Of a stretch of 43,713 nt of DNA, positions 1 through 18,324 are shown in pieces. Positions within the stretch are counted from its first letter, which is position 1, and every line of letters starts with the position of its first letter. The stretch is taken from positions 1 to 43,713 of IMG/VR virus record IMGVR_UViG_3300022921_001805; one strand, 5' to 3'. The notes beneath the pieces were generated by a model. It saw nothing but the letters and a program-made list of their open reading frames with translations, was not told where the DNA came from and did no database searches. Source of the stretch: a virus. Made by a program: the position numbers and the translations under genes.

Positions 1-765
1 ACGAGTTTCATCTCTATCTTCAGTTATGTAAATTCCATCAAGTACATACTGTCTTACATCTATACCAGCTTTCCTTGCGATAAAAGATGCCATCATTGCA
101 AAAGTATCTTCTGAACCATATCCTCCAAATTCTTCGGGAATACCAATTTTATCCCAATACTCTTTTGAATATAGAGTATGCATTCCACAGCCAAACTTAA
201 AAGTGTTTAATAGTTTTAAATCAACACTATCTACCTGTTGTTCAAATGTTTTATCCCATAAAGTTAAATCTTTAAACTGACTAAACTCTTCATTCTTAAA
301 ATCAGGATGAACTATATAGTCCCAACTAGCATCCCACCATCGAGGAATGTTCGGTGATATTACAAATGGACCAGATAATCTTTCTGCAGCCATTAATTGA
401 ATTTTGAGTAATTGTTCGTGTACTGCGATATCAGGGTCAACGAAAATAAATTGGTCATAATCCATTTTAATCACATCACGTTTTTGTTGAGTTGTTCCCC
501 ATAAAGAATCATCTACTACAATTTGAAGATATGAGCGAACATCTTTAACTGCTTTGGTAAACCTATCAATGAAGTATTGTTGTTTTAATTCACTATCATC
601 CCAATTAGTCAATTTTGGATTTAAATTCAAAGTAACATATAATGTAACATCATCTTTACTTGGGTCTAAGTATTTGAATGTGTGTATATAATACTTCATG
701 AACCGTTCAAACATTTCTAATTCTAACGGCATTACATGAGTACATATTAGAGTTCTTCGATTCAT
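1..765 (-). CDS. Glycosyltransferase-like protein, 3' end cut by window edge
   Basis: The reading frame opens at an ATG (763-765) that overlaps the stop of the gene before it (TAATG) and stays open for 255 codons to the window edge, so the C-terminus is missing. It starts MNRRTLICTHVMPLELEMFE. A hydrophobic strand followed by an acidic DxD-type motif (FIFVDPDIAV, about residues 106-115) and a later GYGSEDTFAM segment fit a GT-A-fold glycosyltransferase: DxD for metal/nucleotide-sugar binding, the second acidic segment near the acceptor site. It is the last gene visible in the glycan operon. The exact family and sugar cannot be read from the sequence. The glycosyltransferase assignment is inferred from the motif layout and the neighbours. 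Confidence 0.6.
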   Translation of the reverse strand, partial: MNRRTLICTHVMPLELEMFERFMKYYIHTFKYLDPSKDDVTLYVTLNLNPKLTNWDDSELKQQYFIDRFTKAVKDVRSYLQIVVDDSLWGTTQQKRDVIKMDYDQFIFVDPDIAVHEQLLKIQLMAAERLSGPFVISPNIPRWWDASWDYIVHPDFKNEEFSQFKDLTLWDKTFEQQVDSVDLKLLNTFKFGCGMHTLYSKEYWDKIGIPEEFGGYGSEDTFAMMASFIARKAGIDVRQYVLDGIYITEDRDETR

Positions 766-2000
766 TAAAATATATTTTTAAAGTGTGGTCGAATCATATC
801 AATTGGCTCTAACTTAATAATATCAATTTGGAAAATATCCCAATTAAATGAACCAATCTCATCAGTTTCTTCTATAATAAATGGTAATTGTTTAATAAAC
901 TCAGTAAAGTGCTGATTTGTTAATTTGGTAGCATCAAATGAAATGAGTATGTTGTTGTTCTTTTCATTATCATATGGTTTAACTCTATCAGTTATATCAT
1001 ATTCTGATTTTTCATTTTCAGCATCAACATATCCTCTATAATCACAATCTACGTAAATGGTATCACACCAAGGTTCTAAGATGGATAAGATTTGAGTATT
1101 ACAATTTTTTACAATGAAACCAGTATCGTATCTTTTAGGAACGATTGGCATCATCAATTCATCATGCAATACATCAGTATGCCATTTTCTCCACCACTCT
1201 CTGAATTTGTTTTGTCTGAGGATAGTGTATTCTTCAGAATCTTTTGGTTTGTACCAAATTGTACCATCGGGTAATGGAATCTCCTTTTCAATTTCAATTC
1301 CATCTTTGAACCTACTACCTCTACAAGTCATATGATATACAAATGCATCTCTACTTTGAATCAATTCATATCCATTTAGGTGAAATCTATTAAAGATATC
1401 AGAATCTTCCAACTCCATTGGTGCGAATAAGAAATCGTGGCCACCAATAGAAACGAAATCTTCTTTGTACATCATCCAAGGTGCAAAGATACCTTTGGTA
1501 ATTCTATCTTTATTTTCTTCTTCTTTTTGTGATACAAAGTTTAGGAAGTTTTCTTTTTGTTCTGAGAACTCATCTACTTCTAATCCGAAGTTTTGTACAT
1601 ATTTTTCAGGACCGGGTGGATGTAGTGGTGGTTCAATGCGAGTTGCTGAAACTACACTCATAGGTTTTAGTTGTTTCAACATATTCTGAACATAGTTTGG
1701 GGTTACCACCATATCTGAGTGTAGAATAGATACGATTGGTGTTTTTGCTAGTTTGAATCCAACATCATATAATACTGTATGTCCAACTCTATCAGGTCCT
1801 TCGTTTCTATAAGTGATTATATTATCTCTACCCTCTGAGTATTCAATAATCCAATCCCAACTATTATCATCGGATGCATCATCTAAAATTACCACATCAT
1901 GTGAATCACCATAGTGTTCTTCGATTGAACCTACGGCTTGTTGTAGGTATGGTAGATTACTTCTACAAGGTATTACAAATGTTATTCTTTGGTTATTCAT
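765..2000 (-). CDS. GT2-family glycosyltransferase with extra C-terminal domain
   Basis: The 411-residue product begins with a classic GT2 N-terminus, ITFVIPCRSNLPYLQQAVGS. It has a DD pair at residues 40-41 (nucleotide binding), an HSD motif in the DxD position (94-96), and a downstream GGHDFLFAPMELEDSDIF segment with the usual acidic acceptor-side residues. GT2 enzymes use a nucleotide sugar and invert at the anomeric carbon. After about residue 285 there is a roughly 125-residue region that is not part of the GT2 fold and that I do not recognise. Both ends overlap neighbouring genes by one base (TAATG), which points to translational coupling inside the glycan operon. Donor and acceptor are unknown. 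Confidence 0.82.
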   Translation of the reverse strand: MNNQRITFVIPCRSNLPYLQQAVGSIEEHYGDSHDVVILDDASDDNSWDWIIEYSEGRDNIITYRNEGPDRVGHTVLYDVGFKLAKTPIVSILHSDMVVTPNYVQNMLKQLKPMSVVSATRIEPPLHPPGPEKYVQNFGLEVDEFSEQKENFLNFVSQKEEENKDRITKGIFAPWMMYKEDFVSIGGHDFLFAPMELEDSDIFNRFHLNGYELIQSRDAFVYHMTCRGSRFKDGIEIEKEIPLPDGTIWYKPKDSEEYTILRQNKFREWWRKWHTDVLHDELMMPIVPKRYDTGFIVKNCNTQILSILEPWCDTIYVDCDYRGYVDAENEKSEYDITDRVKPYDNEKNNNILISFDATKLTNQHFTEFIKQLPFIIEETDEIGSFNWDIFQIDIIKLEPIDMIRPHFKNIF

Positions 2001-2806
2001 TACTTACAATAATCTATTGGTTTTGGAAAATGTTTATCTAAATCAGAAATATTATTAATTTCTAAATTGTTAATAAATCTATGAATACTATTATGATTTT
2101 TATTATGGTCATGATGTGTGTTGTTATAAAAAGTTTTAAACCCATATTTGTAAACCAAAATATTAAATAAACTTTGGTCAACTGTATGGTGTATGGTTAC
2201 AATGGGTGTACCATTAATATCTACATCAGTTATTAAATGAGACCATTCTCGTATAAATTTTCTATTGATTTCATTATTTTTAAAGCAATACCAAGATGCC
2301 AACATATGTTTGTGAAGTAATATATTAGGTAGGTATTTTTCACTTTCAGGCCACACTAACTTCCATACATCTTGATTTGATAAACAACCAAAACTATTGT
2401 GAGCAAAATCATTTCCATGTGAACCACAAATATGACCATTATAATCTATATAATCAAAGAACCTATCTAAAGTTTCGGTAAAAGGTTCTCTAAAATATGC
2501 AGAACTATCGGTGTAGTAAATATAATCACCTTCATCTATCTTATCTAATAAATCATTTGCAAACAAGGCTTTATATGCACAAAAATATCCATCGCGTGGC
2601 CACTTTGTTTTAATACTCGGAAAGTGTTTAATTTTATAAAACCATGATTGCTCTTTCATGGATTCTAAACTATGAGAATGTATAACAACTTCTCTTTTTG
2701 TTTTTGATTGTATAGAATCAATTAACATTTTTTGAGTATCCGCATAAGGTAACCCCGTAGTTCTACTTATACCAGTTGCAAATGTTATGTAATGTATTTT
2801 TCCCAT
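2000..2806 (-). CDS. Glycosyltransferase-like protein
   Basis: A 268-residue protein. It has an N-terminal strand (IHYITFATG), a DxS/DxD-like motif in a hydrophobic context (DYIYYTDSSAYF, residues 94-105) and a later SFGCLSNQDVW segment. This layout resembles small GT-A enzymes in which the Asp residues hold the metal and nucleotide sugar. A run of His/Asn residues follows near residues 230-245. The ATG is one base from the preceding stop (TAAATG) and the stop overlaps the next ATG, so it is part of the tightly coupled glycan operon. The family could not be named with certainty. Glycosyltransferase is the best reading from motif and neighbourhood. Confidence 0.5.
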   Translation of the reverse strand: MGKIHYITFATGISRTTGLPYADTQKMLIDSIQSKTKREVVIHSHSLESMKEQSWFYKIKHFPSIKTKWPRDGYFCAYKALFANDLLDKIDEGDYIYYTDSSAYFREPFTETLDRFFDYIDYNGHICGSHGNDFAHNSFGCLSNQDVWKLVWPESEKYLPNILLHKHMLASWYCFKNNEINRKFIREWSHLITDVDINGTPIVTIHHTVDQSLFNILVYKYGFKTFYNNTHHDHNKNHNSIHRFINNLEINNISDLDKHFPKPIDYCK

Positions 2807-3547
2807 TTATTTTTTAAAAGCGTAATTAAATTTTTTTAAATCTTCACTCCATAATTTTGTAAGACTTTCAACTTGGTCATGTCTATATGCTTGAAACCAT
2901 GGTAATGGTGGTTTTGAGTTTGTTTTGTTAATAGCGGTTTTTGATTTATTTGTTATAGGAACATTTATCTCCTTTGAAAATTGTTCCAATTCTTCATTTA
3001 AATTTTCAAATCTAAAAATTATAGAATTTTCATCTATTAACCAATTACCATTTACATCTTTTAACTGAGAAAATAAAGATTCTTTAAATGCAGGAATATG
3101 ATAGTTATCATCTTTTAAATATATATCCACATATTCCTGAAATTTATCTATGGTAGAAGAATATGGATTACCCAAACCATGTATTGATTTTCCCTTAGCC
3201 CAATCAAATGAATACATACTGTATAACATATCAAATGGGTTTCTAACAATTGAAACTAATATATCATCTTCTTCAATTACAAAAGTTCGTACATCAACCC
3301 AATCATTAGAATTTATATTTCGATAATTAATCCAAGATTCATATCCTCTTATTTTAGTTGGATAATTCCAAGCGTGAGTTACACTCGTTATTACTGCATC
3401 TTCATTTTGATACTTAATCTTTTTATAATCAGTTATATCGTTTTGAGAAACACCTTTAAACATTTTAGTGTATCCTTCACCACAAAAATTAAGTTCAAAA
3501 AATGATGAACCTGTCTTTGGTATTTTTATAAATTTTAATTGCTTCAC
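2807..3547 (-). CDS. Sulfotransferase family protein (PAPS-dependent type)
   Basis: Cytosolic-type sulfotransferases move a sulfate group from PAPS to a hydroxyl or amino group, here probably on a glycan. Two PAPS-binding signatures are visible: the 5'-phosphosulfate loop PKTGSS at residues 10-15, right after strand beta-1 (KFIKI), and the 3'-phosphate motif VRNPFDMLYSMYS at 101-113 with R102 and S110. The length, 246 residues, fits single-domain sulfotransferases. A RFENL segment near residue 180 is also typical of the family. The start is GTG, overlapping the preceding stop as TAGTG, the only such junction here. The gene lies between a glycosyltransferase-like gene and a methyltransferase, which suggests glycan sulfation. 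No gene for PAPS synthesis is in the window, so donor would come from the host. Confidence 0.75.
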   Translation of the reverse strand: MKQLKFIKIPKTGSSFFELNFCGEGYTKMFKGVSQNDITDYKKIKYQNEDAVITSVTHAWNYPTKIRGYESWINYRNINSNDWVDVRTFVIEEDDILVSIVRNPFDMLYSMYSFDWAKGKSIHGLGNPYSSTIDKFQEYVDIYLKDDNYHIPAFKESLFSQLKDVNGNWLIDENSIIFRFENLNEELEQFSKEINVPITNKSKTAINKTNSKPPLPWFQAYRHDQVESLTKLWSEDLKKFNYAFKK

Positions 3548-4125
3548 TATTTTAATCGTCTTATTTCGATGATAACATCATCAAATCTACCCTTTGCTTT
3601 TCTTAAATCATAACATTTGAATTCGTATTCATCTGATGAAAAATTCGATTCAATGTTTTCTTTAATTTCTTCTACGTAATTAAAATCAAAAATATCTTCA
3701 ATTATTAACAAACCACCAATTTTTAATTTCGAAAAATATTTTACTGAAGAGTATAATTGACTTGCTAGTGTATGAGGACCATCATCTATAATGAAATCAA
3801 AATAATTATCTTCAAAATTTGATACCCCCTGTTTTGTGTATGCATCTTCCCATAAAACAGTATAACCATTTGCATCTATGAAGGGTTTGGATTTGGTATT
3901 TATATCCATACCTATAATTTCTGCATTGATAAACCAATCGTTCCAAAACTTTATAGATTTTCCATCTAAAACACCTATCTCTAAAATCTTTATATCTTCG
4001 TTACGAATATTACTAAAAATATTAGTATAGTAATTTTGAATATAAGAATGATAGGTACCTTTATCAGTTTGAGCAGATTCTAATATTGTATTAAAATAGT
4101 TAGATAATGTCATTTTATTTTCCAT
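3547..4125 (-). CDS. SAM-dependent methyltransferase, sugar-O-methyltransferase-like
   Basis: Class I methyltransferase fold. Motif I is ILEIGVLDGKS (residues 47-57) and binds SAM. An acidic end of strand 2 is seen in MDIN (73-76). DFIIDDGPHTLASQ (110-123) is the metal-binding DDG-H motif of the MycE/CmcI-like group, whose members methylate sugar hydroxyls or related substrates. The length is 192 residues, short for the group. The first ATG overlaps the upstream gene by 11 bases. An ATG four codons later (position 4113) would start directly after the upstream stop (TAAAATG) and is equally plausible. Its place beside a sulfotransferase and a sugar nucleotidyltransferase suggests that it O-methylates a glycan. 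The exact position methylated is unknown. Confidence 0.72.
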   Translation of the reverse strand: MENKMTLSNYFNTILESAQTDKGTYHSYIQNYYTNIFSNIRNEDIKILEIGVLDGKSIKFWNDWFINAEIIGMDINTKSKPFIDANGYTVLWEDAYTKQGVSNFEDNYFDFIIDDGPHTLASQLYSSVKYFSKLKIGGLLIIEDIFDFNYVEEIKENIESNFSSDEYEFKCYDLRKAKGRFDDVIIEIRRLK

Positions 4126-5482
4126 AATTTTCTAAATAATAAGTTAAATCTTCAGGTGTACCCAATCCCCACATTTTTGGAATATCAAATGTTCTGATTT
4201 CTTTACCACCTTCTATTGCTTGATTGAATACAGGACAAACATAGAACTCGTTATTTACTCTGATATCTTTCTCAATCATTTCTTCTGCGTATTTCACAAA
4301 ATCAGAACCATGTTTCCAATAGTAATATCCTACCGTTGCAATATCTGAAATCGGATTCTTTTCAGCAACTTCAGTTACTAATCCACTTTCATCTACTTTA
4401 GCAAAACTCCATTTAGGGTGAGTTGCTCTAAATGATACAATTCCACCATCTGCATCAGTTTCATTCATCTTGTACATAAACTCAGTTGAATCCCATTCTA
4501 CGAATTGGTCTGAGTTAGCAAAGAAAAGAGGATTATCATTATCAATATATTCTTTTGCTAAAAGTGCAGTACAAGCAGCACCTTCGGTTAATCCATCTAC
4601 CTCAACAATCTTACAATTGGGTGCAATTAGATTTAGAAGTGTATCTAAGTTGTATTTTTCTCTATGTTCTTTCTGAACTACGAAGATAAAATTTGCATCG
4701 ATACCCAAATTCTCTACTACCAATTGAATCATTGGTTTACCTTTCACATCGATTAGTGGTTTTGGGAATGTATATCCTGCTTGTTGAAATCTACTTCCAG
4801 CTCCTGCCATTGGGATAAGTACATTCATTTTCTTATCCTCCCATTTTAAGTTGTTGTTTGTGTTTCCCATTTCTATTTCAGTTAATTTTTTAAATATATT
4901 TGTGTAAGTTACTTCAGTTGGATTTTTTACTCTCAGCACATGAGCTTTTGAACGATTGGCTGCAAGTAATCCATAAGGTGAATCTTCTACGATTAAGGTT
5001 TCTTCAGGTAAACATCCCATCTTTGAGATTGCTCTCCAATACATTTCTGGATGTGGTTTGGAGTTTTGTACATCTTCGTTTGAGATAATGTAATCCATAA
5101 ACTCCATAATACCCAACTTTGAAAGTACAGTCAATACTGTTTTTCTGATTGAGTTTGAACACACTGCTATTTTGTATCCATCCTCAACTAATGCGTTCAT
5201 TACCGATTGTAAAGTTTGGTTTGGTTTTAACTCTTTCAGTTTTTGTAAAGTTAGTTTTTGTTTACCTTCCCAAATCTCTCTATGTAATTCAGTTGGTAAT
5301 CCTTTTCTCTCACTCAACATCTCTAACTTCTGATTGGTTTTTAATCCATCGTAAGTTGATAGGTGTTCAGCCCAACTGATTGCATATTGTTCACCCAATG
5401 CTTCGTTGAGTGCATCATAGTGGATGTTCTTCGCTTCAACCAGCACACCATCCAAATCAAATATTACTAATTTTATACTCAT
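4115..5482 (-). CDS. Fusion: HAD phosphatase + sugar-1-phosphate nucleotidyltransferase
   Basis: A single 455-residue ORF with two enzymes. Residues 1 to about 205 are a HAD hydrolase of the beta-phosphoglucomutase/phosphatase type: catalytic D9 and D11 in DLDGV, AVCSNS at 106-111, the SKPHPE lysine near 142 and VEDSPYG at 165-171. After a short polar linker (about 206-218), residues 219-455 are a nucleotidyltransferase: MNVLIPMAGAGSRF with the GxGxR nucleotide loop, then FPKPLIDVKGKP. The pair would remove or shift a phosphate and then activate the sugar-1-phosphate with an NTP to make a nucleotide-sugar donor. Both active sites look intact. Which sugar is used is not readable. It lies inside the glycan operon and overlaps both neighbours by a few bases. 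Confidence 0.85.
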   Translation of the reverse strand: MSIKLVIFDLDGVLVEAKNIHYDALNEALGEQYAISWAEHLSTYDGLKTNQKLEMLSERKGLPTELHREIWEGKQKLTLQKLKELKPNQTLQSVMNALVEDGYKIAVCSNSIRKTVLTVLSKLGIMEFMDYIISNEDVQNSKPHPEMYWRAISKMGCLPEETLIVEDSPYGLLAANRSKAHVLRVKNPTEVTYTNIFKKLTEIEMGNTNNNLKWEDKKMNVLIPMAGAGSRFQQAGYTFPKPLIDVKGKPMIQLVVENLGIDANFIFVVQKEHREKYNLDTLLNLIAPNCKIVEVDGLTEGAACTALLAKEYIDNDNPLFFANSDQFVEWDSTEFMYKMNETDADGGIVSFRATHPKWSFAKVDESGLVTEVAEKNPISDIATVGYYYWKHGSDFVKYAEEMIEKDIRVNNEFYVCPVFNQAIEGGKEIRTFDIPKMWGLGTPEDLTYYLENYGK

Positions 5483-6174
5483 ACTATTCCTCTTTCAAAT
5501 GGGTTTATTCCATACTCTTTAAACATTGTATCCAATTCTTTGGTATATTCATTCATGTTCCATTTACCCTTTACAATTGCAGTTGCAACGTAAGGATATA
5601 TCATACTATCATAGTGAAGAAGACCTCGTTTTGCTTCGCCTCCAATTTTAGCTATGTAATTAGTACCTATCATAGGTACTCTTTTTTCAAATTCCCAAAT
5701 ATTAAGAGGTTCATTTTGTTGAATCAAATTAATCAGAGTATTTGTTTTTATAATGGTGGGTTGAATACTAAATTTTGAATATTCATTCGCTATGAGTGTA
5801 TTATCAAATTCTGAAACTTTATCGATTCCTCGAATATAATTCATTTTAATACTATCTACGATATCAGATTCAACATACTCACCATATTTGTTAAGTAGTT
5901 CTTTATTGACCTGATTATATAAAATCATATCCTCGTGTTGAAATAATATGGTTTCATTTTTAAAATGAGATAATATTTCCATCAATCTATCAGTATAAAT
6001 TTTTGAATCATCGTATTCAATAAATTCATAGTTATTAGGTATGATATCTATTTTTTGGTTACATGCAACAATTACTCGTTGGTTTGGTAAGTATTTTTCT
6101 ATTTGAGCAAATAAAATTTTACAAACGTCTTCGTAATCACTATGTGTATATACTAATAATGGAATTTTAATCAT
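5479..6174 (-). CDS. Putative glycosyltransferase, unassigned family
   Basis: A 231-residue protein starting IKIPLLVYTHSDYEDVCKIL. It has an ILFQHEDMILY segment (around residue 97) in which a hydrophobic strand ends in His-Glu-Asp, resembling a degenerate DxD motif. A later GGEAKRGLLHYDSMIYPYVA segment is near the C-terminus. It is small and soluble with no signal peptide or membrane segment. Start and stop both overlap neighbours as ATGA, so translation is coupled within the operon. Glycosyltransferase function is inferred from context and the weak motif. It could equally be an accessory protein. Confidence 0.4.
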   Translation of the reverse strand: MIKIPLLVYTHSDYEDVCKILFAQIEKYLPNQRVIVACNQKIDIIPNNYEFIEYDDSKIYTDRLMEILSHFKNETILFQHEDMILYNQVNKELLNKYGEYVESDIVDSIKMNYIRGIDKVSEFDNTLIANEYSKFSIQPTIIKTNTLINLIQQNEPLNIWEFEKRVPMIGTNYIAKIGGEAKRGLLHYDSMIYPYVATAIVKGKWNMNEYTKELDTMFKEYGINPFERGIV

Positions 6175-6794
6175 AATTTATAGTTATTTTTTACATTTGG
6201 TAAAATACTATTAAGATATAACCTACCATTAGTTTCAGATGATAATTTTTTCTGTCTTTTTGTCCAAATTATATCATTATCAATAGTTAAACTATTTCCC
6301 ACAAAATTAATATCGGTTATATCATTTTCTAATATTCTTTTTGTAATTGCATATTCTGGATATGGTACATTAATATCGATATTTTCAAAAATATCTACTA
6401 AAATATCAACATCACCTTCAATAAAATAATCCGTAAAATATCCATGTAAGTGATTCATAAATGCAAGAAAGTTGATAGATTCTAACTTTAACAGTTTTAA
6501 AAACTCAGATGAATTGGTAGGATACATATCTTCTCTCCACTTAATGACCCTTGTAAATCCAAGTTCTTTAGCTTTTAAGATGCCATTTAGAGATGATATT
6601 TTTTGTAGGTTCAAATTTTGTACTCCACGATTGGTTGGTATTTTATTAAGAACTACAATATCTGATGTGGAATAGCATGAAGTATCCGAACCCTCCCATG
6701 TTGAATATACAATAGGAATATTTTTCCAATGTTTTTTTATATTTAAAACATTAGTAAAGTTTGTTGGGCCTTGAACTACTACACATCTATTCAT
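6171..6794 (-). CDS. WavE-like glycan biosynthesis protein
   Basis: The N-terminus (CVVVQGPTNFTNVLNIKKHW, then IPIVYSTWEGSD) has the pattern of the WavE lipopolysaccharide-synthesis family: a VxQGP opening, a helix, then a strand ending STWEG. RVIKWREDMYPTN follows as in that family. I place the start at the ATG that overlaps the upstream stop (TAATG, 6794), giving 207 residues. An ATG four codons upstream (6806) lies inside the preceding gene and would add MYIL. WavE-type proteins are presumed glycosyltransferases for LPS core or O-antigen. Here the gene sits with other glycosyltransferases in a phage. Substrate unknown. Confidence 0.65.
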   Translation of the reverse strand: MNRCVVVQGPTNFTNVLNIKKHWKNIPIVYSTWEGSDTSCYSTSDIVVLNKIPTNRGVQNLNLQKISSLNGILKAKELGFTRVIKWREDMYPTNSSEFLKLLKLESINFLAFMNHLHGYFTDYFIEGDVDILVDIFENIDINVPYPEYAITKRILENDITDINFVGNSLTIDNDIIWTKRQKKLSSETNGRLYLNSILPNVKNNYKL

Positions 6795-7498
6795 TAGAAT
6801 ATACAATTTTTATTATAATATCGTGAAGTTGAATACGCAAATTCTCGTATAGGTTTACCATGTACAAATTCAGAGATTGCCGAACCCATATCTACATACT
6901 GATTGTGGGGATTTATTCTCCACAGTATATCGATTATGATTTCTGACAAAGGTCCTGCAGAGATTACAAATAATTCTCCTTTAATATCTTTATAATAATC
7001 TACAATAGATTGTCTAAACTCATCTCTAAGTTGTTCATAGAACTCAATACAGTTATCAGGAATAGGTAAGTGGGTCTTCACTTCCATTGGAAATCTTCTA
7101 ATATCAGTTCTTTCATTTGATATTAAATTTATTGGAGTTTTTAGGTGTTTAAAAAATTGCATAAAATCCGAGTAGTTTCCATTTACAAAGATATTGGAAA
7201 ATGTAACATTCTCAGTTTTAGTTTTCATTAAATCTAACAAATACTCCTTTCCACTTAAATCACAACATTGACAAGATATACCAAAATAGACATTATCATC
7301 AACTAATGTTAAACATTCTAATAAATCTTTTCCAAGAGTTGTCAAATAGTTGGGAGATATCCAATTATCTGCTCCGTTTTTTTGTCTACCTTGCATTATT
7401 GCAATTTCACCATCTGCAAATCTACTTAAAGCAAAAGGTTTGGTAGAATTTATAAGTTCTACTACTTCTATAAAATCTTGTTTAAAATCCTGCTTCAT
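6794..7498 (-). CDS. DUF1792/GT-D-like glycosyltransferase
   Basis: A 234-residue protein with FALSRFADGEIAIMQG near residues 22-37. The S-R-F-x-D-G-E signature is typical of the DUF1792 domain, described as the GT-D glycosyltransferase fold. The glutamate/aspartate pair binds metal and donor. NLISNERTD and LFVISAGPLSEIIID segments in the second half fit a Rossmann-like sheet. The gene overlaps the previous one by 17 bases, and its stop forms TAATG with the next start. The GT-D family was first characterised in glycosylation of a bacterial serine-rich adhesin. Here it adds a further fold type to the glycan operon. Assignment is by motif recall only. Confidence 0.55.
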   Translation of the reverse strand: MKQDFKQDFIEVVELINSTKPFALSRFADGEIAIMQGRQKNGADNWISPNYLTTLGKDLLECLTLVDDNVYFGISCQCCDLSGKEYLLDLMKTKTENVTFSNIFVNGNYSDFMQFFKHLKTPINLISNERTDIRRFPMEVKTHLPIPDNCIEFYEQLRDEFRQSIVDYYKDIKGELFVISAGPLSEIIIDILWRINPHNQYVDMGSAISEFVHGKPIREFAYSTSRYYNKNCIF

Positions 7499-8486: not shown

Positions 8487-9246
8487 TTAACAATTTCCAA
8501 CCTTTAATTCGCTGTTCTCTAAAATACTGATTCATTAAATGTTTGGATGGTGTACCATCTAAACCCTGCTGATTTGATTCCCATATAGAATTCTCATCTC
8601 CCCCATATTTTCCACCCTTTAGACTTCCCCACAGTTCCATATCATCCGATGGATGTGGTGGTACGATTGTAGGAATACCGGCATATTTTTGTAACATATA
8701 AGAGAAATGCATATCTTCACCACATATATTATATTTTGGGTCAGGTAATTCTCTAACTAAATACGATAACCATTCTTTTTTAAAGAACCAACTATGTCCA
8801 ACAAAATCAACTTGAACAGGTTCGTGATGATTTCCCCTCGTTGGCCAACCCACTCGAACGTATGGTTCAAAATACGAAGATTCTTGCGGTGGTCTTGGTT
8901 GGGGGTATATTAAACCAACAGTTCCCAATAATCCCTCATGTGTTTTCATTGTTTCTAAACAATTTTCTATCCATCTACGACCAGGAATCGTATCATCATC
9001 AAATACTACTACATAAGGATTTATTGAATTCATAGCAAAGTAGAATCTTGCCCAAACCCCAAAGTTGTAATTACAATACGCAACAGGTATTTCACCCCCA
9101 ATATCATAATTTAATAAATCATTATCACCAGGATTATTATACCACAATAAAATTTCAGTAGGTGGTACACTTTGATTTTTAAGTGCATCTAATTGCTCAT
9201 CGAGATTTTTACCTCGCTTATAACCATTTAATATTGCTGTAACCAT
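8476..9246 (-). CDS. GT2-like glycosyltransferase
   Basis: A 256-residue GT-A enzyme. It starts VTAILNGYKRGKNLDEQLDA with a GT2-type helix after the first strand. ILLWYNNPGDND follows at about 32-43. The metal/nucleotide-sugar motif is DDD at residues 83-85 in YVVVFDDDTIPGRRW. A GHSWFFKKEWL segment and a CGEDMHFSYMLQKY segment supply acceptor-side acidic residues (GED). No membrane segment. The start forms TAATG with the stop of the large fusion gene before it. Donor and acceptor are unknown. Assignment to GT2-type glycosyltransferases is well supported by the motif order. Confidence 0.8.
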   Translation of the reverse strand: MVTAILNGYKRGKNLDEQLDALKNQSVPPTEILLWYNNPGDNDLLNYDIGGEIPVAYCNYNFGVWARFYFAMNSINPYVVVFDDDTIPGRRWIENCLETMKTHEGLLGTVGLIYPQPRPPQESSYFEPYVRVGWPTRGNHHEPVQVDFVGHSWFFKKEWLSYLVRELPDPKYNICGEDMHFSYMLQKYAGIPTIVPPHPSDDMELWGSLKGGKYGGDENSIWESNQQGLDGTPSKHLMNQYFREQRIKGWKLLNEK

Positions 9247-11534: not shown

Positions 11535-12162
11535 TTTGTATAACTAATTTTCTTTTATATCCTTCTTTAGCAACTACATAGGGAAGTTGTGAATCGGGAT
11601 TATCTTTTACTTCTTGTGGAACATACAACCATTTGTAAGCCATTTTATCTTTGTATTGTTCTCTATTTTTAATCAAATCAACCCACGTACCTCGATAACC
11701 TGCTCCGAAATCAACCCATTTTACTTCTGAGTGATTGATGTAATGTTTTATCAAATTAAACCACATATACTTTGCCATATATCGATGGTTTGTAGTTTCT
11801 TTGTTATATAGAGGTGGATGACAATAAACATATTCACCAAATCGTTCAACAAAATGAATTGATAAAATAGTATTATCTTCCGTATATGCTGCAAACAAAT
11901 CAATAACACCTAATTGATTCAAACTATGAATGTGTTGTGGTGGAAATCCCCATTGTCTTTTTTCACCACGAATTAATTGCTGTTGCCAGAGTACCATGAA
12001 GAAATAAACTATTTCTGCATCATACTGAATTAAATCGTAAGTTAAATCATTATTGTGTTTAACAGTATATTTGTAGTTCTTCTTACCAGTTGTAGCAAGA
12101 GAACTAATGTATTCTTCAAAACTCGATACATTCGTGTTTATTAGAAAAGGAGTTTCCATCAT
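11524..12162 (-). CDS. GNAT/FemAB-like acyltransferase
   Basis: A 212-residue protein with the pattern of the CelD/FemAB branch of the GNAT fold. IDLFAAYTEDNTILSIHFVERFG (about 108-130) looks like the central strands that carry the acyl donor site. A helix (YMAKYMWFNLIKHY) follows. VKWVDFGAGYRGTW and YKWLYVP form the C-terminal strands, as in proteins that add acyl or aminoacyl groups to sugars. The first ATG overlaps the preceding stop (ATGA), and a second ATG follows directly. Located between a GT8-like enzyme and the large fusion, it probably acylates an amino sugar in the glycan. Family recognition is moderate and the substrate unknown. Confidence 0.5.
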   Translation of the reverse strand: MMETPFLINTNVSSFEEYISSLATTGKKNYKYTVKHNNDLTYDLIQYDAEIVYFFMVLWQQQLIRGEKRQWGFPPQHIHSLNQLGVIDLFAAYTEDNTILSIHFVERFGEYVYCHPPLYNKETTNHRYMAKYMWFNLIKHYINHSEVKWVDFGAGYRGTWVDLIKNREQYKDKMAYKWLYVPQEVKDNPDSQLPYVVAKEGYKRKLVIQNEK

Positions 12163-13109
12163 TGATTATATAATTTTTGAAGAGCATCAGAACAACCTTC
12201 TGCTAATCTCAAAAAATCTCTAATAGTAAAATCCATTCTAAAGTTTTTGTAATGAATATGGATTGATTCTCCGATGTTATCTTCTATATCTAATCTATCA
12301 TTCATTATGGTTCCTCGTAACTTATCACCTGCAAGTGGAATCATACCAGCGTTTACATTCATGTGTGCATCCAAATCTTCTAAGAACAAACCATCATCAC
12401 AACCCATATAACCATACAATTCCAAATCTTTCTGAATTGCAGTTGGTTTATGACCACATCCTGCATAATGCATCATATAGATATCTTGAATTTTATCTAC
12501 TTCAGCATCTTGTAGAGATTTTCCTCTATATCCGTCTGCCCAAATTCGAGTAAAATGCCATCTTGCTGGAAGTTCGGTTGGTTGTAATCCCGATTTACCG
12601 ATTGCCCAATTCATGTGTCCCATTTCGCCTCCCCACTGTCCTACAACATAAGGTGGTTTCCAAAACTCCATCATTTTTTCAAGATGAATTCTATCTGCCA
12701 AAATGATACCCGAACTCCAATAGTATTCGAATAAATCCTTTAACCCATCCATTGAAAGTTGGGTTTGGTTTTCTACCATCCAATCATACCAAATATCATA
12801 CGTGTTTCCATATCTAAGGTATAATTCTCCTTTTTCAAATTCTTGAAAAATATCAGGAGTATTTTTATGGATGATTACATCTGCATCCATGTAAAGAAAT
12901 CTTTCATGACCTGATTGTAAAAAGTGTTCGATTGCAGATATTAAATTAAAATGACCAGTTGGATATTCAGGACGAAATACCTCTTCACCTAAAACATAAT
13001 ATTCAGCATCAATAGATTCTGCGTAATGTTTTTGTGATGGAATACAATATTCTGCATAATCTTCTGCTTCCTTTCCTACTACGATTGTGTATATTGCGTT
13101 CTTTTTCAT
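12159..13109 (-). CDS. GT8-like glycosyltransferase
   Basis: A 316-residue retaining-type GT-A enzyme by motif. AIYTIVVGKEAEDYAEYCIP at the N-terminus is followed by a SAIEHFLQSGHERFLYMDADVIIHK stretch, with DAD at residues 75-77 as the metal-binding DxD. EYYWSSGIILADR (about 128-140) is the acceptor-side segment, and a late YMMHYAGCGHKP segment carries the His often seen binding metal in GT8. No membrane anchor. It is coupled to the GNAT-like gene by an ATGA overlap and separated from the upstream gene by one base. The sugar donor is unknown. Confidence 0.72.
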   Translation of the reverse strand: MKKNAIYTIVVGKEAEDYAEYCIPSQKHYAESIDAEYYVLGEEVFRPEYPTGHFNLISAIEHFLQSGHERFLYMDADVIIHKNTPDIFQEFEKGELYLRYGNTYDIWYDWMVENQTQLSMDGLKDLFEYYWSSGIILADRIHLEKMMEFWKPPYVVGQWGGEMGHMNWAIGKSGLQPTELPARWHFTRIWADGYRGKSLQDAEVDKIQDIYMMHYAGCGHKPTAIQKDLELYGYMGCDDGLFLEDLDAHMNVNAGMIPLAGDKLRGTIMNDRLDIEDNIGESIHIHYKNFRMDFTIRDFLRLAEGCSDALQKLYNQ

Positions 13110-13110
13110 C

Positions 13111-13743
13111 TTAATAATCTTTAAAAGTTATGTAATCATTAAATAAATTTTTTACATCACCACTCATAACTTTCTGATGAATAGTATCCGTAACTTTGTA
13201 GAAAATCATATCCATTAATCGATATACTTTGTCAGAATCTACCTTATCAATTAACTCTAAAATTCTTGCTTCGTATCTATCAGTTGTTTTTCTCTTATCA
13301 AAAATACAATGACAAACTAAATGAACCAATTCATCATTTGGATGTAGGTGGTTGATATACACATCCGTTACTTCAACTCTATTATCTAATGCACTTCTCG
13401 TTAATCTTTTATCTATATTAACAAATGCAACGTTGTTTGCAACACTTCTATAATACATTCCTGTCATAATATCAAAGTGAACATCCAATTCTTGATGTTT
13501 GAAATGAATATGTGGTTGTGCACCATACAAACAAGGGGAATTATCCTGATATATTTGGTAGTTTATTGGTTTTACTGTATCTACCACATCTTTGATATAA
13601 ATGGTTGGAATTAAAACATCAATATCATTTTCAATCGAAGATTCGGTTGGAATCAAATCTAAATTTCGTAAAGTAGAAAATCTTCCATTTGTAACCTCAT
13701 TGATGATTTTAAATGTTTCTTTAATTAAGATATCTTTAGTCAT
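13111..13743 (-). CDS. Minimal nucleotidyltransferase-like protein
   Basis: A 210-residue protein. Residues 39-46 (NDIDVLIP) and a later strand VHFDIMTG give the D-x-D ... D arrangement of the DNA polymerase-beta-type nucleotidyltransferase superfamily. An all-helical C-terminal part (DELVHLVCHCIFDKRKTTDRYEARIL) resembles the helical half of aminoglycoside-type or MNT nucleotidyltransferases. A GxS pair, usual just before the first Asp, is not obvious. The true chemistry (nucleotidyl transfer to a small molecule, protein or glycan) is not readable. It overlaps the gene before it by eight bases. Context suggests a role in glycan assembly. Family assignment is tentative. Confidence 0.45.
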   Translation of the reverse strand: MTKDILIKETFKIINEVTNGRFSTLRNLDLIPTESSIENDIDVLIPTIYIKDVVDTVKPINYQIYQDNSPCLYGAQPHIHFKHQELDVHFDIMTGMYYRSVANNVAFVNIDKRLTRSALDNRVEVTDVYINHLHPNDELVHLVCHCIFDKRKTTDRYEARILELIDKVDSDKVYRLMDMIFYKVTDTIHQKVMSGDVKNLFNDYITFKDY

Positions 13744-13954
13744 CGTATGAAGTTATTTTTTTATATTCAATCATTTTATTTGCACTATTGACAACATGAG
13801 ATGCGAACTGAGTAAATTCTTCAGGTTTCATTTCTATTCTAAGTGCATCATTTTGTAAGTGAATTATCGGACCATCATTTAGTTCAATTTCTAAATAACC
13901 TAATGCCTGGTCTTTGAATTCTACTCTTGCTAATTCTTTTTGTATTACTCCCAT
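13736..13954 (-). CDS. Small conserved-looking phage protein, unknown
   Basis: A 72-residue acidic protein with no domain I recognise. It reads as alternating beta strands (LARVEFKDQALGYLEIEL, then GPIIHLQNDALRIEM) and a C-terminal helix (EEFTQFASHVVNSANKM). No Cys pairs, signal peptide or membrane segment. It follows a GT2 gene after two bases and overlaps the nucleotidyltransferase-like gene, so it is expressed with the glycan operon. Codon use and spacing look like the neighbours, and it is very likely a real gene. Confidence 0.6.
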   Translation of the reverse strand: MGVIQKELARVEFKDQALGYLEIELNDGPIIHLQNDALRIEMKPEEFTQFASHVVNSANKMIEYKKITSYDD

Positions 13955-13956
13955 AA

Positions 13957-14586
13957 TTAAAGTGTTTCGTAGTATTCGTTTTGTTTTTCTTGTCTTTTAA
14001 TATCTTTTGGATGATATAGAGAAAACACCTCTTCTTGAGGTAATACCGTAAGAGTATTATACCCTTTGATTCTTTCATGCACTTTACCTTCCCATTCAAT
14101 CTCTGAAGTTCTACGATAGATTCGTGTCTGAACATCTGGCCAGTTTACCCAACCCTGTTCGTTTACATTCCATCTCCATTTGTTAATATGTTCCTGTGTT
14201 AATCCTTCTACTGTATTGATTCTTGGTACAAAGAACAAATCTACATCTTTATTTGCTTCCAATAATTCGTGCATATTCTCAATCAAATATTCATGCGGAA
14301 TTTCATCAGCATCGATTTGGAAAATAAAGATACCCTTTGCGGTTTCTTTTAAATTATTCTTAAATGAAGCAAAATCATCATTGAGTGGAAATCCAACCAC
14401 TCTAATATTTTGATGAAGTGTATTGACTATATTTAAATAATCTTGAACATCTTTAGTAACACCATCTTCATCGTATTGAATTAAAATCTCATCATCCGGT
14501 TGAATTCTCGGATGAAGAAAGTTTACTAACCTCGTAATCTCTTCTATTTCGTTGCAAACTGTGATTGCGTATGTAACATTAAGCAT
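13957..14586 (-). CDS. GT2-family glycosyltransferase
   Basis: A 209-residue small GT2 enzyme. The start VTYAITVCNEIEEITRLVNF is the first strand and helix. DDEILIQYDEDG (31-42) is the nucleotide-binding segment. IFIFQIDADEIPH (86-98) holds DADE at 92-95, the metal-binding motif in the form seen in GT2 enzymes of the WaaE/SunS group. A late RIYRRTSEIEWEGKVHERI segment is the acceptor-side element typical of that group (W...G.VHE). The WaaE-type enzymes add glucose or heptose to LPS core. The real substrate here is unknown. It overlaps the gene before it by eight bases. Confidence 0.82.
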   Translation of the reverse strand: MLNVTYAITVCNEIEEITRLVNFLHPRIQPDDEILIQYDEDGVTKDVQDYLNIVNTLHQNIRVVGFPLNDDFASFKNNLKETAKGIFIFQIDADEIPHEYLIENMHELLEANKDVDLFFVPRINTVEGLTQEHINKWRWNVNEQGWVNWPDVQTRIYRRTSEIEWEGKVHERIKGYNTLTVLPQEEVFSLYHPKDIKRQEKQNEYYETL

Positions 14587-15061
14587 AATATCTTTCTAAT
14601 ATTTCTTTCTTAAAATAAACTTTACTCACATATTTAATACCATCTAAGTTGTAAGTTCTAAATGGTATTTGTGGTTTTTTAAGTAATGCAGAGTTTTTTA
14701 TATGTGCTTTATAAATTCTATCACCCGATATATCTATTGATGGGGCTAACTCTGATAATAATACAAGTTCTTTATCTTCATTTAAAACTTCTTTATCAGT
14801 AATAATTTTCTTTCCCCATTCAAAAAAATACTGAGGTTTTAAATCAGATAATTTTAATCCATAAATTACCTTTTTATATACACCAGTAACAAAAATTAAT
14901 GTTTCATCAACTCCCTTTAAAGAACGTGTTTTACCATCAGAGTACTTATAGGTAGAAATTCGATAGACATCATTTGGTTGTATCATCATTCTTGAAATTC
15001 GTTCTTCTTTTTGAATAAATTGTCTGTATTGTCTACTAAAATTTTGTTTTTGTTCAGCCAT
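14579..15061 (-). CDS. Unknown protein between glycosyltransferase genes
   Basis: A 160-residue basic protein, not recognised. The N-terminus is helical and charged (QNFSRQYRQFIQKEER). A beta-rich middle follows (DVYRISTYKYSDGKTRSLKG, ETLIFVTGVYKKVIYGLKL), which could be an SH3-like or OB-like barrel. The C-terminal part reads GIKYVSKVYFKKEILERYY. No enzyme motif was found. The ATG forms TAATG with the preceding GT4 gene. Its basic beta-barrel look resembles small phage nucleic-acid- or scaffold-binding proteins more than a glycan enzyme. That is only an impression. Confidence 0.55.
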   Translation of the reverse strand: MAEQKQNFSRQYRQFIQKEERISRMMIQPNDVYRISTYKYSDGKTRSLKGVDETLIFVTGVYKKVIYGLKLSDLKPQYFFEWGKKIITDKEVLNEDKELVLLSELAPSIDISGDRIYKAHIKNSALLKKPQIPFRTYNLDGIKYVSKVYFKKEILERYYA

Positions 15062-16401
15062 TACAATTTAGTTAGTTTTGGTAATTTAAGTTCGGGTTTT
15101 TCAGGTTGTTTATTTAATTTAGGTAACTTGAGTTTATTTTCTCCCAATTTAGGTAAATTAAATGCTTTTTGTACAGGAATATTTCCTGTATATTTGTCCA
15201 TAATTTTACCAAGTTCTTCTGTCATTTTTTCCATCGTAAAGTTATTTACAATGTTAGTTCTTAATCCTGATGCTTTTTGTAAGAACGAATCATATTCATT
15301 GAATACCTGATAAAGTTTATTTGCTGCATTTGAGTAATTTACAGTAAACCATTTTGATTCTTTAATTAAAAACTTATCTTGAGCAGAACTATCAATATCA
15401 GTTAATTGACCATCGAGAAAAACTGTATGTTGCTCGGGTAAGAAATCTACATGACCACTCCACTTAGAAACCAAGATTGGTTTACCTGTTGTTGCAAACT
15501 CTGCAAGTGGTCTACCATATCCTTCACCTTTAGTAAATGATACCATTGCCTTTACTTTTGGGTGATTGTAAAGTTCTGCCATTTCAGTATCTTTTAAATC
15601 ACCATGTAATAAATAAATTGGTGGTATATCACTACCCAAATCTTTAATTATATTTTCAATTTTTTCTCGTGTAGTTTCTCTATCCATTACTGAGAATCCT
15701 GCATGAGATGTTTTTAGGATAAGACCTGGTCTTTTATCTTTTGGTAAGTACTTAAAGACAGTTGCAAAAGTTTTGATTACCATACCAACATCCTTTCTAT
15801 CCTGGCCCAAGTTTCCTTTTAGCCAATGACCCACAAATAAGAAATTAAAATCAGTTTCAATACCTTCTAACACATCTATTTCTGATTTTGAATAGTTGAT
15901 ATAAGTGTCAATATCTACCCCCTCAAAAAGAACTTCAACAGGTTTTTGAGTTTTAAAAACGTTAATCACTTCACCGGTTTGCTTGTTTTGTTCCTGAAAT
16001 TGGGTTTTATCAAAAAGAGATTTAGTAAATTGTGAAGGTACGAGAATTAAATCCATTTTATTTGCACCATCAATAAACTCTTTTGGAATTACGGTTGTTT
16101 CCACCCCTGCAGTGATACCAATATTAAAGTTACCCTTTGGTTCAAATTCGTTAGCAACTGACATCTGAATAAAGATATCCGGTTTTCTACTAACTTGAGT
16201 AGCAACGTTTGCTAACATTTTTTGTCCAAATTCAGTACTTGGGTCTGCTTGGTTTTGTGGAGTGTTTCCCCAACGAGTTGGTACAATTTTTACATCGTAC
16301 TTATCTAAATCAAATAAACTTCTAAGGATATCTCTTGCATGGTCTCCGTAGCCACTTCGGGTAAATACAGGTGCTTGATATACTAATAAAGGTTTGCTCA
16401 T
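15061..16401 (-). CDS. GT4-family glycosyltransferase with LPKL-repeat tail
   Basis: A 446-residue GT-B enzyme. The N-terminal domain starts LLVYQAPVFTRSGYGDHARD, with the glycine-rich SGYG acceptor loop. The C-terminal donor domain has LFVGHW, a helix, then MVSFTKGEGYGRPLAEFATTGKPILVS, the E-x7-E-type motif of GT4 retaining transferases. After about residue 413 there is a 33-residue tail with (N/K)LPKL repeated three times and rich in Lys/Pro, outside the GT-B fold. The start uses the recurrent context AAGTTATG. It is paired with another GT4 two genes upstream. Confidence 0.85.
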   Translation of the reverse strand: MSKPLLVYQAPVFTRSGYGDHARDILRSLFDLDKYDVKIVPTRWGNTPQNQADPSTEFGQKMLANVATQVSRKPDIFIQMSVANEFEPKGNFNIGITAGVETTVIPKEFIDGANKMDLILVPSQFTKSLFDKTQFQEQNKQTGEVINVFKTQKPVEVLFEGVDIDTYINYSKSEIDVLEGIETDFNFLFVGHWLKGNLGQDRKDVGMVIKTFATVFKYLPKDKRPGLILKTSHAGFSVMDRETTREKIENIIKDLGSDIPPIYLLHGDLKDTEMAELYNHPKVKAMVSFTKGEGYGRPLAEFATTGKPILVSKWSGHVDFLPEQHTVFLDGQLTDIDSSAQDKFLIKESKWFTVNYSNAANKLYQVFNEYDSFLQKASGLRTNIVNNFTMEKMTEELGKIMDKYTGNIPVQKAFNLPKLGENKLKLPKLNKQPEKPELKLPKLTKL

Positions 16402-16407
16402 AACTTC

Positions 16408-16728
16408 TTATCTTTTATATGCGGTAATATTTATAATTTGGTAATTTTCGTTGAAAGTGATTACATCCATAATCTCCAACTTTTCTTCACCAATTGTGAT
16501 TGTAATTTCGTTAAAGGTTTTATTATTGGAATGATGGATAGTATGTACATCTAAAGTAAAATCTAAATCAAACAACCCAGCGTTTGCATTTAGTACTTCT
16601 TCTCTACCTTTGATATTAATATCCCAATCAACTAAGTGAATATCTGAAGAATATAGATGCGATAATCCCTTTATATCTTTGTTCTTAAATCTATCAAAAT
16701 AATCTTGTGATTTTTTAATATACATCAT
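16408..16728 (-). CDS. SnoaL/NTF2-like small protein
   Basis: I start this at the ATG directly after the preceding stop (TAAGATG, 16728), giving 106 residues. A longer frame upstream would run inside the GT4 gene. The product (SQDYFDRFKNKDIKGLSHLY, then DIHLVDWDINIKGREEVLNA, later strands LDVHTIHHSN and EKLEIMDVITFNENYQIINI) has the helix-helix-strand pattern and length of the NTF2-like cone fold used by SnoaL-type isomerases and many binding proteins. The GREEV segment is typical. It could be a small-molecule enzyme acting on a sugar intermediate or a binding protein. It lies between two GT4 genes. Confidence 0.65.
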   Translation of the reverse strand: MMYIKKSQDYFDRFKNKDIKGLSHLYSSDIHLVDWDINIKGREEVLNANAGLFDLDFTLDVHTIHHSNNKTFNEITITIGEEKLEIMDVITFNENYQIINITAYKR

Positions 16729-16729
16729 C

Positions 16730-18112
16730 TTATGCAATTTTAAATAATTCGTATCTTCTGCGAGGTTTCCAATTTTCAAAAGTAGTTTCAATACCATTGA
16801 TAAGTTGTTGACACATATTTTCTGAATTTAATCCCATATCTTCAATAAATGCTCTTCTACCTTCCAGCCCATTTTCTTTTAGGGTTTCTTTCGGGGTGTT
16901 ATACATTTCTTCCATTGCATCAGTTAAATCATGAATATCAACCTTGTCATCCCAAATGTAAGGAGTTGGTACCGAACCTGTCAATGATTGTACTCTACTC
17001 CACACAGGTCTACACCATACACCATGCTCTACTTTACCTTCCCAATCTCTCCATCTATGAAGTGAACCAATCTCAATGTAATCTTCAGCGGTTAGATACT
17101 CACCATCTTTTTTGAATCCAGCTTGGTCTTGTAATCCACCTGTTACATTGATAATGATTGGTGTTCCTGCCATAACTGATTCTGCCGTTGTTAAACCAAA
17201 TCCTTCATTACCGGCAATGTTAATTGTACAATCAACCATATTATAAAGTTGATTTAATTGTTCAGTATTTAATTTATTGGTTGAGAAAATTACATTACAA
17301 CCTGGTGCAAGAGTTTCTACAACCGTTGGTAAATCGGTACCATTATTATCTTTTGGTGTTGTGTGCATCAAAAGTGCAACTTTATTTGCTTTTTCTTTTC
17401 CGATTCTGTCACAAAATTCTTTAAATGCCATAATCACATCCGCTGGTTGTTTTCTACGAATGTTACGATTTGACCAGAAGAATACGAAATCATATTCATT
17501 ACCTACGAGTAGTTTACTTTTTAATTCTGAATCTACATCTACTGGTTTGAATTCTTCAGGATTAATTCCATGTGGTACATAAGATACTTGCCAATCTGAG
17601 TGAGGTTTCCAAGTTGGTTTATCAGTTCTCTTAGTTAATCGAGAAACAATACCATAAGTTTGACGAGAGATTGCACCTAACCAATCACAACTTTCATAAT
17701 AATTTCTATTATAAAGTGGGTCAGGTAAATCATCCCAAATAGTATAATAAAGAATTGGACAATTTTCTCTGATTTCATGCTCCATTTCATATAACCATGT
17801 CCAATAACGAGGGTCCGTGAAGTGAAGAATCGCATCAGGTTGTTCCTGATTCATTAGTTGTCTTAACAAATTTTGGTCACCGTACCCAGTCCAAGGTAAG
17901 ATTTTTACATTAGCATCTTCTACACCTGTTCTTTTCTGAATATCTTGTGATAAATCAAGAACTTTACCTTTATCGGGATGGTTAATTGCTGCTCCTACTT
18001 GATACCAATCATATTTGTGGACGGTACCCATTACCAATGCTTTACTCATAGTAGCGATACCACTACTCATTCTCATGTCATCTGAAAGGAGAAGGATTTT
18101 CTTTTTACTCAT
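16730..18112 (-). CDS. GT4-family glycosyltransferase
   Basis: A 460-residue GT-B enzyme. The N-terminal half has KILLLSDDMRMSSGIATMSK with the acceptor-side glycine loop, and AILHFTDPRYW. The donor half has FVFFWSNRNIRRKQP (start of the GT4 C-terminal domain) and INIAGNEGFGLTTAESVMAG, the E-x7-E motif, followed by TPIIINVTGGLQDQ. Retaining transfer from a nucleotide sugar is expected. The start lies in the recurrent AATAAGTTATGAG context. It is the first glycosyltransferase of the operon in transcription order, just after a small ribbon-helix-helix-like gene. Confidence 0.85.
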   Translation of the reverse strand: MSKKKILLLSDDMRMSSGIATMSKALVMGTVHKYDWYQVGAAINHPDKGKVLDLSQDIQKRTGVEDANVKILPWTGYGDQNLLRQLMNQEQPDAILHFTDPRYWTWLYEMEHEIRENCPILYYTIWDDLPDPLYNRNYYESCDWLGAISRQTYGIVSRLTKRTDKPTWKPHSDWQVSYVPHGINPEEFKPVDVDSELKSKLLVGNEYDFVFFWSNRNIRRKQPADVIMAFKEFCDRIGKEKANKVALLMHTTPKDNNGTDLPTVVETLAPGCNVIFSTNKLNTEQLNQLYNMVDCTINIAGNEGFGLTTAESVMAGTPIIINVTGGLQDQAGFKKDGEYLTAEDYIEIGSLHRWRDWEGKVEHGVWCRPVWSRVQSLTGSVPTPYIWDDKVDIHDLTDAMEEMYNTPKETLKENGLEGRRAFIEDMGLNSENMCQQLINGIETTFENWKPRRRYELFKIA

Positions 18113-18132
18113 AACTTATTATCAATAACTTT

Positions 18133-18324
18133 TTAAAATTGTGAACCACTACATTGTAGTGCGGTATATTCATTCATTTCTTGTCTGAATTCTAAATCGG
18201 AAACGTATCTTTCAACTGTTCTATTAACTATCTTTTGTAGTGTAACATTTGATTCGAACGAAACTTGTTTAAAATTTGAATATACATCCTTTAAAATTTT
18301 TACGGTTGTTAGTTTTGTTTCCAT
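18133..18324 (-). CDS. Small ribbon-helix-helix-like protein
   Basis: A 63-residue protein: a short N-terminal strand (KLTTVKILKDVYSNF) followed by two helices (FESNVTLQKIVNRTVERYVS, then FRQEMNEY). This is the length and layout of Arc/MetJ-type ribbon-helix-helix DNA-binding proteins, in which paired N-terminal strands enter the major groove. A Cys (CSGSQF) is near the C-terminus. It is the first gene of the glycan operon, so it might regulate it, but that is inference. A gap of about 45 AT-rich bases with alternating TATATA precedes it. Confidence 0.5.
   Translation of the reverse strand: METKLTTVKILKDVYSNFKQVSFESNVTLQKIVNRTVERYVSDLEFRQEMNEYTALQCSGSQF

Follow-up and report, generated by a model that had tools for sequence, protein, structure and literature searches.

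A glycan-building cassette with a fixed frame and an exchangeable middle in a T4-like phage of Bacteroidota

The IMG/VR virus fragment IMGVR_UViG_3300022921_001805 (43.7 kb; 43,713 nucleotides, referred to throughout as the window) has essentially every gene on the minus strand. The left 18.3 kb are a single run of 22 minus-strand open reading frames (ORFs), g1 to g22, read from position 18324 down to position 1. This run is a glycan-building operon that contains far more than a DNA glucosyltransferase, and comparison with relatives reveals a fixed frame of glycosyltransferases (GTs) around a middle that has been swapped. We give about even chances to the reading that the cassette O-glycosylates virion fibres in the cytoplasm, with sulfation of the sugar. 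More tentatively, T4-like phages of aquatic Bacteroidota may possess a modular system devoted to O-glycosylating collagen-like tail fibres, with fixed initiating and finishing GTs, an exchangeable serotype-like middle, sulfation dependent on 3'-phosphoadenosine 5'-phosphosulfate (PAPS), and the acceptor encoded in the operon of one clade.

The original prediction, of about 21 consecutive and tightly packed genes, holds. Sixteen of the 21 junctions between g1 and g22 are overlapping, four are 0–10 nt and a single gap exceeds 10 nt (20 nt), giving a coding density of 99.8 %. In the rest of the window, 11 of 26 gaps are >10 nt. The cassette begins directly after a PD-(D/E)XK nuclease gene, as it does in cassettes of the type found in Flavobacterium phage vB_FspM_immuto (immuto; GenBank accession number MW353176), and it extends beyond the window, as g22 runs off the edge (255 of ~290 aa). 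The locus was read in 16 relatives, namely 14 metagenomic contigs of 41–274 kb and two cultured phages, immuto and Mel-JY01, and counts out of 16 refer to these. The genes are as follows.

18370–19239, minus strand: PD-(D/E)XK (RecB-like) nuclease, 5' border of the cassette, which follows it in relatives (phrog_69, 3e-23)
18133–18324, minus strand: g1, 63 aa, ribbon-helix-helix-like by eye, usual first cassette gene (ortholog in 10/16 fully read relatives and 61/67 loci)
16730–18112, minus strand: g2, GT4 (GT-B) glycosyltransferase, frame gene (PF00534, 6e-8; 16/16; 46.7 % identity to the immuto GT)
16408–16797, minus strand: g3, SnoaL-like small protein (PF12680, SnoaL_2, 4e-7; 5/16)
15061–16401, minus strand: g4, GT4-like glycosyltransferase, frame gene (weak PF20706/PF00534; 45 % identity to an immuto RfaG-like GT; 16/16)
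14579–15061, minus strand: g5, fast-diverging, beside the fibre-insertion site, no confident family (AlphaFold predicted local distance difference test (pLDDT) 84; 11/16)
13957–14586, minus strand: g6, GT2 glycosyltransferase, frame gene (PF00535, 6.7e-8; 16/16)
13736–13954, minus strand: g7, 72 aa, strain-specific middle (0/16; seen in near-identical contig L085 only)
13111–13743, minus strand: g8, possible NTP_transf_5 nucleotidyltransferase, strain-specific middle (PF14907, 2.6e-5, under the curated cut-off)
12159–13109, minus strand: g9, probable GT-A-like transferase by eye, strain-specific middle (no Pfam match; weak phrog_28746, 1.6e-4)
11524–12162, minus strand: g10, acyltransferase-like by eye, strain-specific middle (no Pfam or PHROG match; PDB matches short, chance)
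9246–11534, minus strand: g11, two-part, N-terminal GINT1_N domain (PF24793, 3e-29) and C-terminal GT2 glycosyltransferase (PF00535, 3e-13)
8476–9246, minus strand: g12, GT2 glycosyltransferase (PF00535, 2.5e-5, over cut-off; 9/16)
7482–8486, minus strand: g13, UDP-GlcNAc 2-epimerase, UDP-ManNAc supply (PF02350, Epimerase_2, 1.5e-63; 9/16)
6794–7498, minus strand: g14, GT-D (DUF1792-fold) glycosyltransferase, invariant D-G-E (Foldseek fold match; 9/16)
6171–6806, minus strand: g15, WavE-like transferase, ATG start at 6794 (blastp group, one member of which matches PF07507, WavE, 9e-7)
5479–6174, minus strand: g16, probable GT-A-like transferase (no Pfam match; 7/16)
4115–5482, minus strand: g17, HAD phosphatase fused to sugar-phosphate nucleotidyltransferase (PF13419, HAD_2, 1.6e-32; PF00483, NTP_transferase, 2.7e-11; 10/16)
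3547–4125, minus strand: g18, S-adenosylmethionine methyltransferase-like, strain-specific (PF13578, Methyltransf_24, 6e-4, under cut-off)
2807–3547, minus strand: g19, sulfotransferase (Sulfotransfer_2), GTG start, strain-specific (PF03567, 3.4e-6, over cut-off)
2000–2806, minus strand: g20, probable GT-A-like transferase from its sequence, strain-specific (no Pfam match)
765–2000, minus strand: g21, GT2 glycosyltransferase, frame gene at the distal end (PF00535, 3e-14; 16/16)
1–765, minus strand: g22, last of the cassette and truncated where the window ends, probable GT-A-like (no family match; 11/16)

At least seven GTs have Pfam or fold support, namely two nearly adjacent GT4 enzymes (g2 and g4), four GT2 enzymes (g6, the C-terminal part of g11, g12 and g21) and one GT-D enzyme (g14). 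The Pfam match of g4 is weak, yet the protein is 44–45 % identical over ~92 % to annotated phage GTs. No Pfam family matches g14, and the three best PDB matches to its AlphaFold model (pLDDT 80, predicted template modelling score 0.83) are all DUF1792 GT-D enzymes (4pfx, 4phr and 5v4a; Foldseek, E 2e-5 to 2e-4, probability 1.00). The R-x-x-D-G-E motif (R26, D29, G30, E31) is invariant in 13 homologs. PDB sequence searches with g14, g9, g10 and g5 returned no matches or chance ones, and the confident model of g5 has no PDB match at E <0.1 (best E 0.14). Around five further ORFs are plausible GTs from inspection or from a relative, the GT-A-like calls for g9, g16, g20 and g22 having been made by eye with no family match. 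With these, the predicted figure of some twelve GTs would be reached. At least four fold types had also been predicted, and this was reduced to three that are supported (GT-A, GT-B and GT-D).

Synthesis of sugar donors, also predicted, is represented by g13, in which the motifs of the non-hydrolysing type are intact by eye, and by the two domains of g17. Among the three tailoring enzymes proposed, the sulfotransferase g19 stands, the methyltransferase g18 falls under its cut-off and the acyltransferase g10 is a call by eye. The supported glycan-enzyme calls do not extend to g1, g3, g5, g7, g8 and g10. The real start of g3 is probably near 16728, past the g2 stop. A search of 84,980 genomes for a bacterial source of g11 gave no match.

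The frame genes g2, g4, g6 and g21 are present in all 16 relatives, in the same order and behind the same nuclease. Others are kept in part: g5 and g22 in 11 relatives, g17 in ten, and g12, g13 and g14 in nine each. Orthologs of g7 to g11 and g18 to g20 were found in none of the 16, though the C-terminal part of g11 is found in some loci and g7 to g10 are in the near-identical contig L085. To avoid ascertainment on GTs, loci seeded with polB or the nuclease were also used, and g2, g4, g5 and g6 are present in all 22 of these that have enough downstream sequence. Among close relatives, the frame genes are 60–83 % identical, with order and reading frames intact. The middles of relatives hold other glycan enzymes, including GT11, an NAD-dependent epimerase, FkbM methyltransferases, a PfkB kinase, a pyruvyl transferase and another GT-D enzyme. 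The layout, with constant ends and a swapped centre, recalls an O-antigen locus.

The cassette had been put forward as the best candidate for an undescribed system, and this does not hold. In immuto (49.1–59.9 kb), a homologous cassette is annotated in the same place behind the PD-(D/E)XK nuclease and in the same order (small ORF, GT4, GT4, a protein of ~150 aa, GT2 and, distally, GT2), with identities of 45–48 % for g2, g4 and g6 and 44 % for g21. The middle differs. In immuto it includes WecE aminotransferases, a sugar epimerase and other GTs, whereas here it includes a GINT1_N-GT2 protein, UDP-GlcNAc 2-epimerase, a GT-D enzyme, a HAD-nucleotidyltransferase and a sulfotransferase. Glycan clusters of T4-like phages were reported in 2010 (PMC3037559), and large ones in T4-like phages from the sea have been under discussion ever since P-SSM2 (PMC3037559, PMC7824862).

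We favour the virion as acceptor because the frame is conserved, lipid-linked machinery is absent and a collagen-like, Ser/Thr-rich fibre gene lies in the operon of relatives. None of g1 to g22 contains a membrane segment (no hydrophobic segment with KD19 >1.6). No initiating polyprenyl-phosphate transferase was found with Pfam in the cassette of the window. In eight larger relatives (160–274 kb), neither the initiating transferases PF02397 (Bac_transf) and PF00953 (Glycos_transf_4) nor the Wzx flippase PF01943 (Polysacc_synt) was found, and the positive controls matched. The phage is therefore unlikely to export a polysaccharide autonomously, although host intermediates could still be modified. 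Six of the eight encode an adenosine 5'-phosphosulfate (APS) kinase, and sulfotransferases recur in or near cassettes; together these would fit sulfation of the glycan with PAPS as donor.

Of 47 distinct loci of relatives, 18 have a collagen-like, tail-fibre-like ORF (341–1091 aa, 29–40 % Ser+Thr) inside the operon, between g5 and g6. This ORF contains runs of 17–33 G-X-Y triplets in which X-Y is mainly TS or SS, and matches Pfam Collagen (PF01391, E down to 2.5e-41) and PHROG tail-fibre families. No named phage with this insert was found in a search with the low-complexity filter on. No Ser-rich acceptor gene lies inside the window itself; a fibre gene of this phage would lie beyond it. A tree of g4 places the insertion as one gain, retained across the clade, and one loss, which rules out 18 independent insertions. 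Where the insert was lost (L192/G007), a 796-aa Ser/Thr-rich, collagen-positive protein is encoded 2.0 kb after g22. All eight fully read insert-less relatives of the close clade have a Ser/Thr-rich protein of 796–883 aa 2.0–6.3 kb downstream of g22, those other than L192/G007 being 801–883 aa long and 2.9–6.3 kb away. In many relatives a subtilisin-like S8 protease gene adjoins the collagen-like fibre gene at either fibre location, often coming after the copy in the operon (L156, 17675–19240, and orthologs, group c37); the protease is perhaps a fibre-processing enzyme.

In the mechanism that we propose for fibre glycosylation, nucleotide-activated sugars would be made in the host cytoplasm by the g13 epimerase and the g17 phosphatase/nucleotidyltransferase. 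Soluble GTs would then assemble an oligosaccharide stepwise, with g2, g4 and g6 acting first, enzymes of the variable middle next and g21 and g22 last, directly on Ser/Thr residues of the fibre proteins of the phage. Decoration by the sulfotransferase and the methyltransferase-like and acyltransferase-like enzymes would come afterwards. The fixed frame may thus supply a constant linkage or core and the closing steps, and the exchanged middle a strain-specific chain similar to an O-antigen.

Several points weigh against glycosylated fibres. A glycan on the virions is predicted from genes, and the frame GTs could equally work on a host lipid-linked glycan. The insertion of the fibre gene is a single evolutionary event. 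The same genomes also encode giant Ser/Thr-rich collagen-like fibres at a distance of ~40–90 kb, which means that Ser/Thr-rich proteins are not confined to the neighbourhood of the cassette. Immuto has the frame, but the ~70 % of its genome that was scanned contains no collagen-like protein; Ser/Thr-rich tail proteins are present there. A pattern scan via g22 for a continuation past the window gave no relative, so the fibre that the phage of the window would carry lies out of view. The giant proteins, probably virion fibres, reach ~4590 aa in one frame in the large relatives (G001:C1:126219–153682 and G003:C1:185836–208278; L260–L261 and L274–L275).

The main rival explanation, which we consider rather unlikely, is host-surface remodelling, in which phage GTs extend or alter lipopolysaccharide (LPS) or capsule intermediates of the host and so keep out superinfecting phages or prevent adsorption to debris. 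The cyanophage and pelagiphage clusters have been interpreted in this way in print (PMC7824862, PMC7029224), and the enzyme types fit LPS and capsule loci (WavE and Epimerase_2 here; pyruvyl transferase, FkbM and GT11 in relatives). However, as neither the cassette nor the larger relatives provide an initiating transferase, flippase or membrane protein, host machinery would be needed, and the in-operon fibre gene of relatives would have no role. It is improbable that the sugar goes to mixed acceptors or to one of another kind, such as a protein of the capsid, some different protein of phage or host, or a small-molecule glycoconjugate, or that the cassette is in part non-functional filler for headful packaging. 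Clusters of the P-SSM2 type have been proposed as 'stuffer DNA' (PMC3037559), and g3, g5, g7, g8 and g10 have no assigned function, but the conservation of the frame genes noted above argues against filler. Glycosylation of modified phage bases against restriction, by all the GTs or at least by the conserved g2 and g4, is very improbable despite the T4-like context and the thymidylate-synthase-like, asparagine-synthase-like and pyridoxal phosphate (PLP)-enzyme-like genes at 31529–34576, since more than ten GTs and sulfation far exceed known DNA glycosylation, the divergent thymidylate-synthase-like gene was found in only four of the 38 polB loci whose upstream flank reaches the full 10 kb whereas g2 and g4 are never missing where the flank is long enough, and two inspected full-length genes of relatives are canonical.

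Full-length thymidylate synthase family genes were found in seven of ten relatives, and the two inspected show the canonical LGLPFN motif with no change of the dCMP-hydroxymethylase type. Beta-glucosyltransferase (PF09198) gave no match in eight relatives, but the positive control was equally silent. Of the products suggested originally, a virion coat gains support from the fibre gene of relatives, and attachment to DNA is disfavoured by the two canonical thymidylate synthases and the rarity of the divergent gene. An exported polysaccharide is disfavoured by the lack of membrane machinery.

Besides that of immuto, four known systems can be compared with this cassette. The cyanophage 'LPS' clusters (P-SSM2, S-SSM7 and S-SM2; PMC3037559) are also variable clusters of many GTs and sugar-activating enzymes in enlarged T4-like genomes, but they are sited near hli03 or phoH. 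A tblastn search of 50,697 phage records with g2, g4 and g11 had no P-SSM2-type phage among the matches listed. The host recognition cluster of pelagimyophages (PMC7029224) likewise brings the tail fibres and GTs of a T4-like phage together in a single hypervariable region, but is larger and less ordered, with GTs read as modifying the host O-chain, whereas here a fixed GT frame flanks the variable middle. At the bacterial Fap1 locus, a DUF1792 enzyme, of the fold seen in g14, works with other soluble GTs in stepwise cytosolic O-glycosylation of a serine-rich adhesin (PMC5207161). That acceptor is encoded in the same locus and leaves by accessory Sec export, whereas we infer the phage acceptor. 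The initiating pair Gtf1/Gtf2 of that locus was not identified in the phage, though no direct comparison with GtfA/GtfB was made. Fibril clusters of the mimivirus group (PMC9614988) are virus-encoded, with clade-specific GTs and enzymes of sugar-nucleotide and sulfate metabolism, and decorate virion fibrils. They differ in belonging to eukaryotic giant viruses and in having individual promoters rather than one operon, and their glycans are chemically proven, whereas that of the phage is predicted. The open-access PMC text searched gave no description of a fixed-frame layout, of a collagen-like fibre within the operon or of the GT-D and sulfation content.

The right part of the window is a T4-like replication block with genes for gp32, UvsX, a 5'–3' exonuclease, a gp41-like helicase, NrdB/NrdA, PolB, gp44 and the PD-(D/E)XK nuclease, and a sliding-clamp-like gene called from position and length. 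With gp23 in relatives, these genes confirm the predicted T4-like phage. Two lines support the predicted Bacteroidota host, namely the cultured relative from Flavobacterium and the near absence of Shine–Dalgarno motifs (2 of 45 genes), and a T4-like phage of marine and lake Bacteroidota is the supported assignment. There was no evidence that this is the Moraphage lineage (PMC12619734), which also has Bacteroidota hosts. Mel-JY01 (L082; GenBank accession number PP395634) is recorded on the cyanobacterium Microcystis. Its PolB is 53 % identical to this lineage, compared to only ~33 % for marine cyanophages, and its g2 ortholog is divided between two ORFs in the annotation; either the recorded host or the gene call may be in error.

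Three paralogous DNA-methyltransferase-like proteins flank PolB (22028–23662, 26992–28197 and 28197–29426, minus strand; phrog_12517/phrog_498, weak PF01555, TSPPYF motif). They are common to many relatives, and three related copies around a polymerase are unusual. Phosphoribosyltransferase-like and nucleoside-phosphorylase-like genes, called by eye, form a salvage pair (20975–22031, minus strand) between a methyltransferase-like gene and gp44. In some relatives, L061 (10001–13525), L062 (9040–12564) and L067 (10001–13557), the PolB match covers ~3.5 kb rather than 2.5 kb, which suggests an intein, intron or homing-endonuclease insertion. Beside NrdA, the PLP-enzyme-like, asparagine-synthase-like amidotransferase and divergent thymidylate-synthase-like genes (31529–34576, minus strand) stand together, a trio found in only a few of the 38 polB loci and possibly for nucleotide modification.

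Large glycan clusters were recognised in marine T4-like phages some 15 years ago and their target is disputed, with changes to host LPS, DNA protection and filler DNA all proposed. The cassette type is already known from cultured phages, and what is new here is its anatomy of a fixed frame and a swapped middle. Immuto, grown on Flavobacterium sp. LMO8, is a system in which the virion target can be examined. If fibre glycosylation is correct, the coats of these phages would differ from strain to strain and might be sulfated, which would bear on adsorption, on the stability of the particles and on how fibres evolve. The cassette would then be a bacteriophage counterpart of the loci for serine-rich adhesins and of the system that glycosylates mimivirus fibrils.

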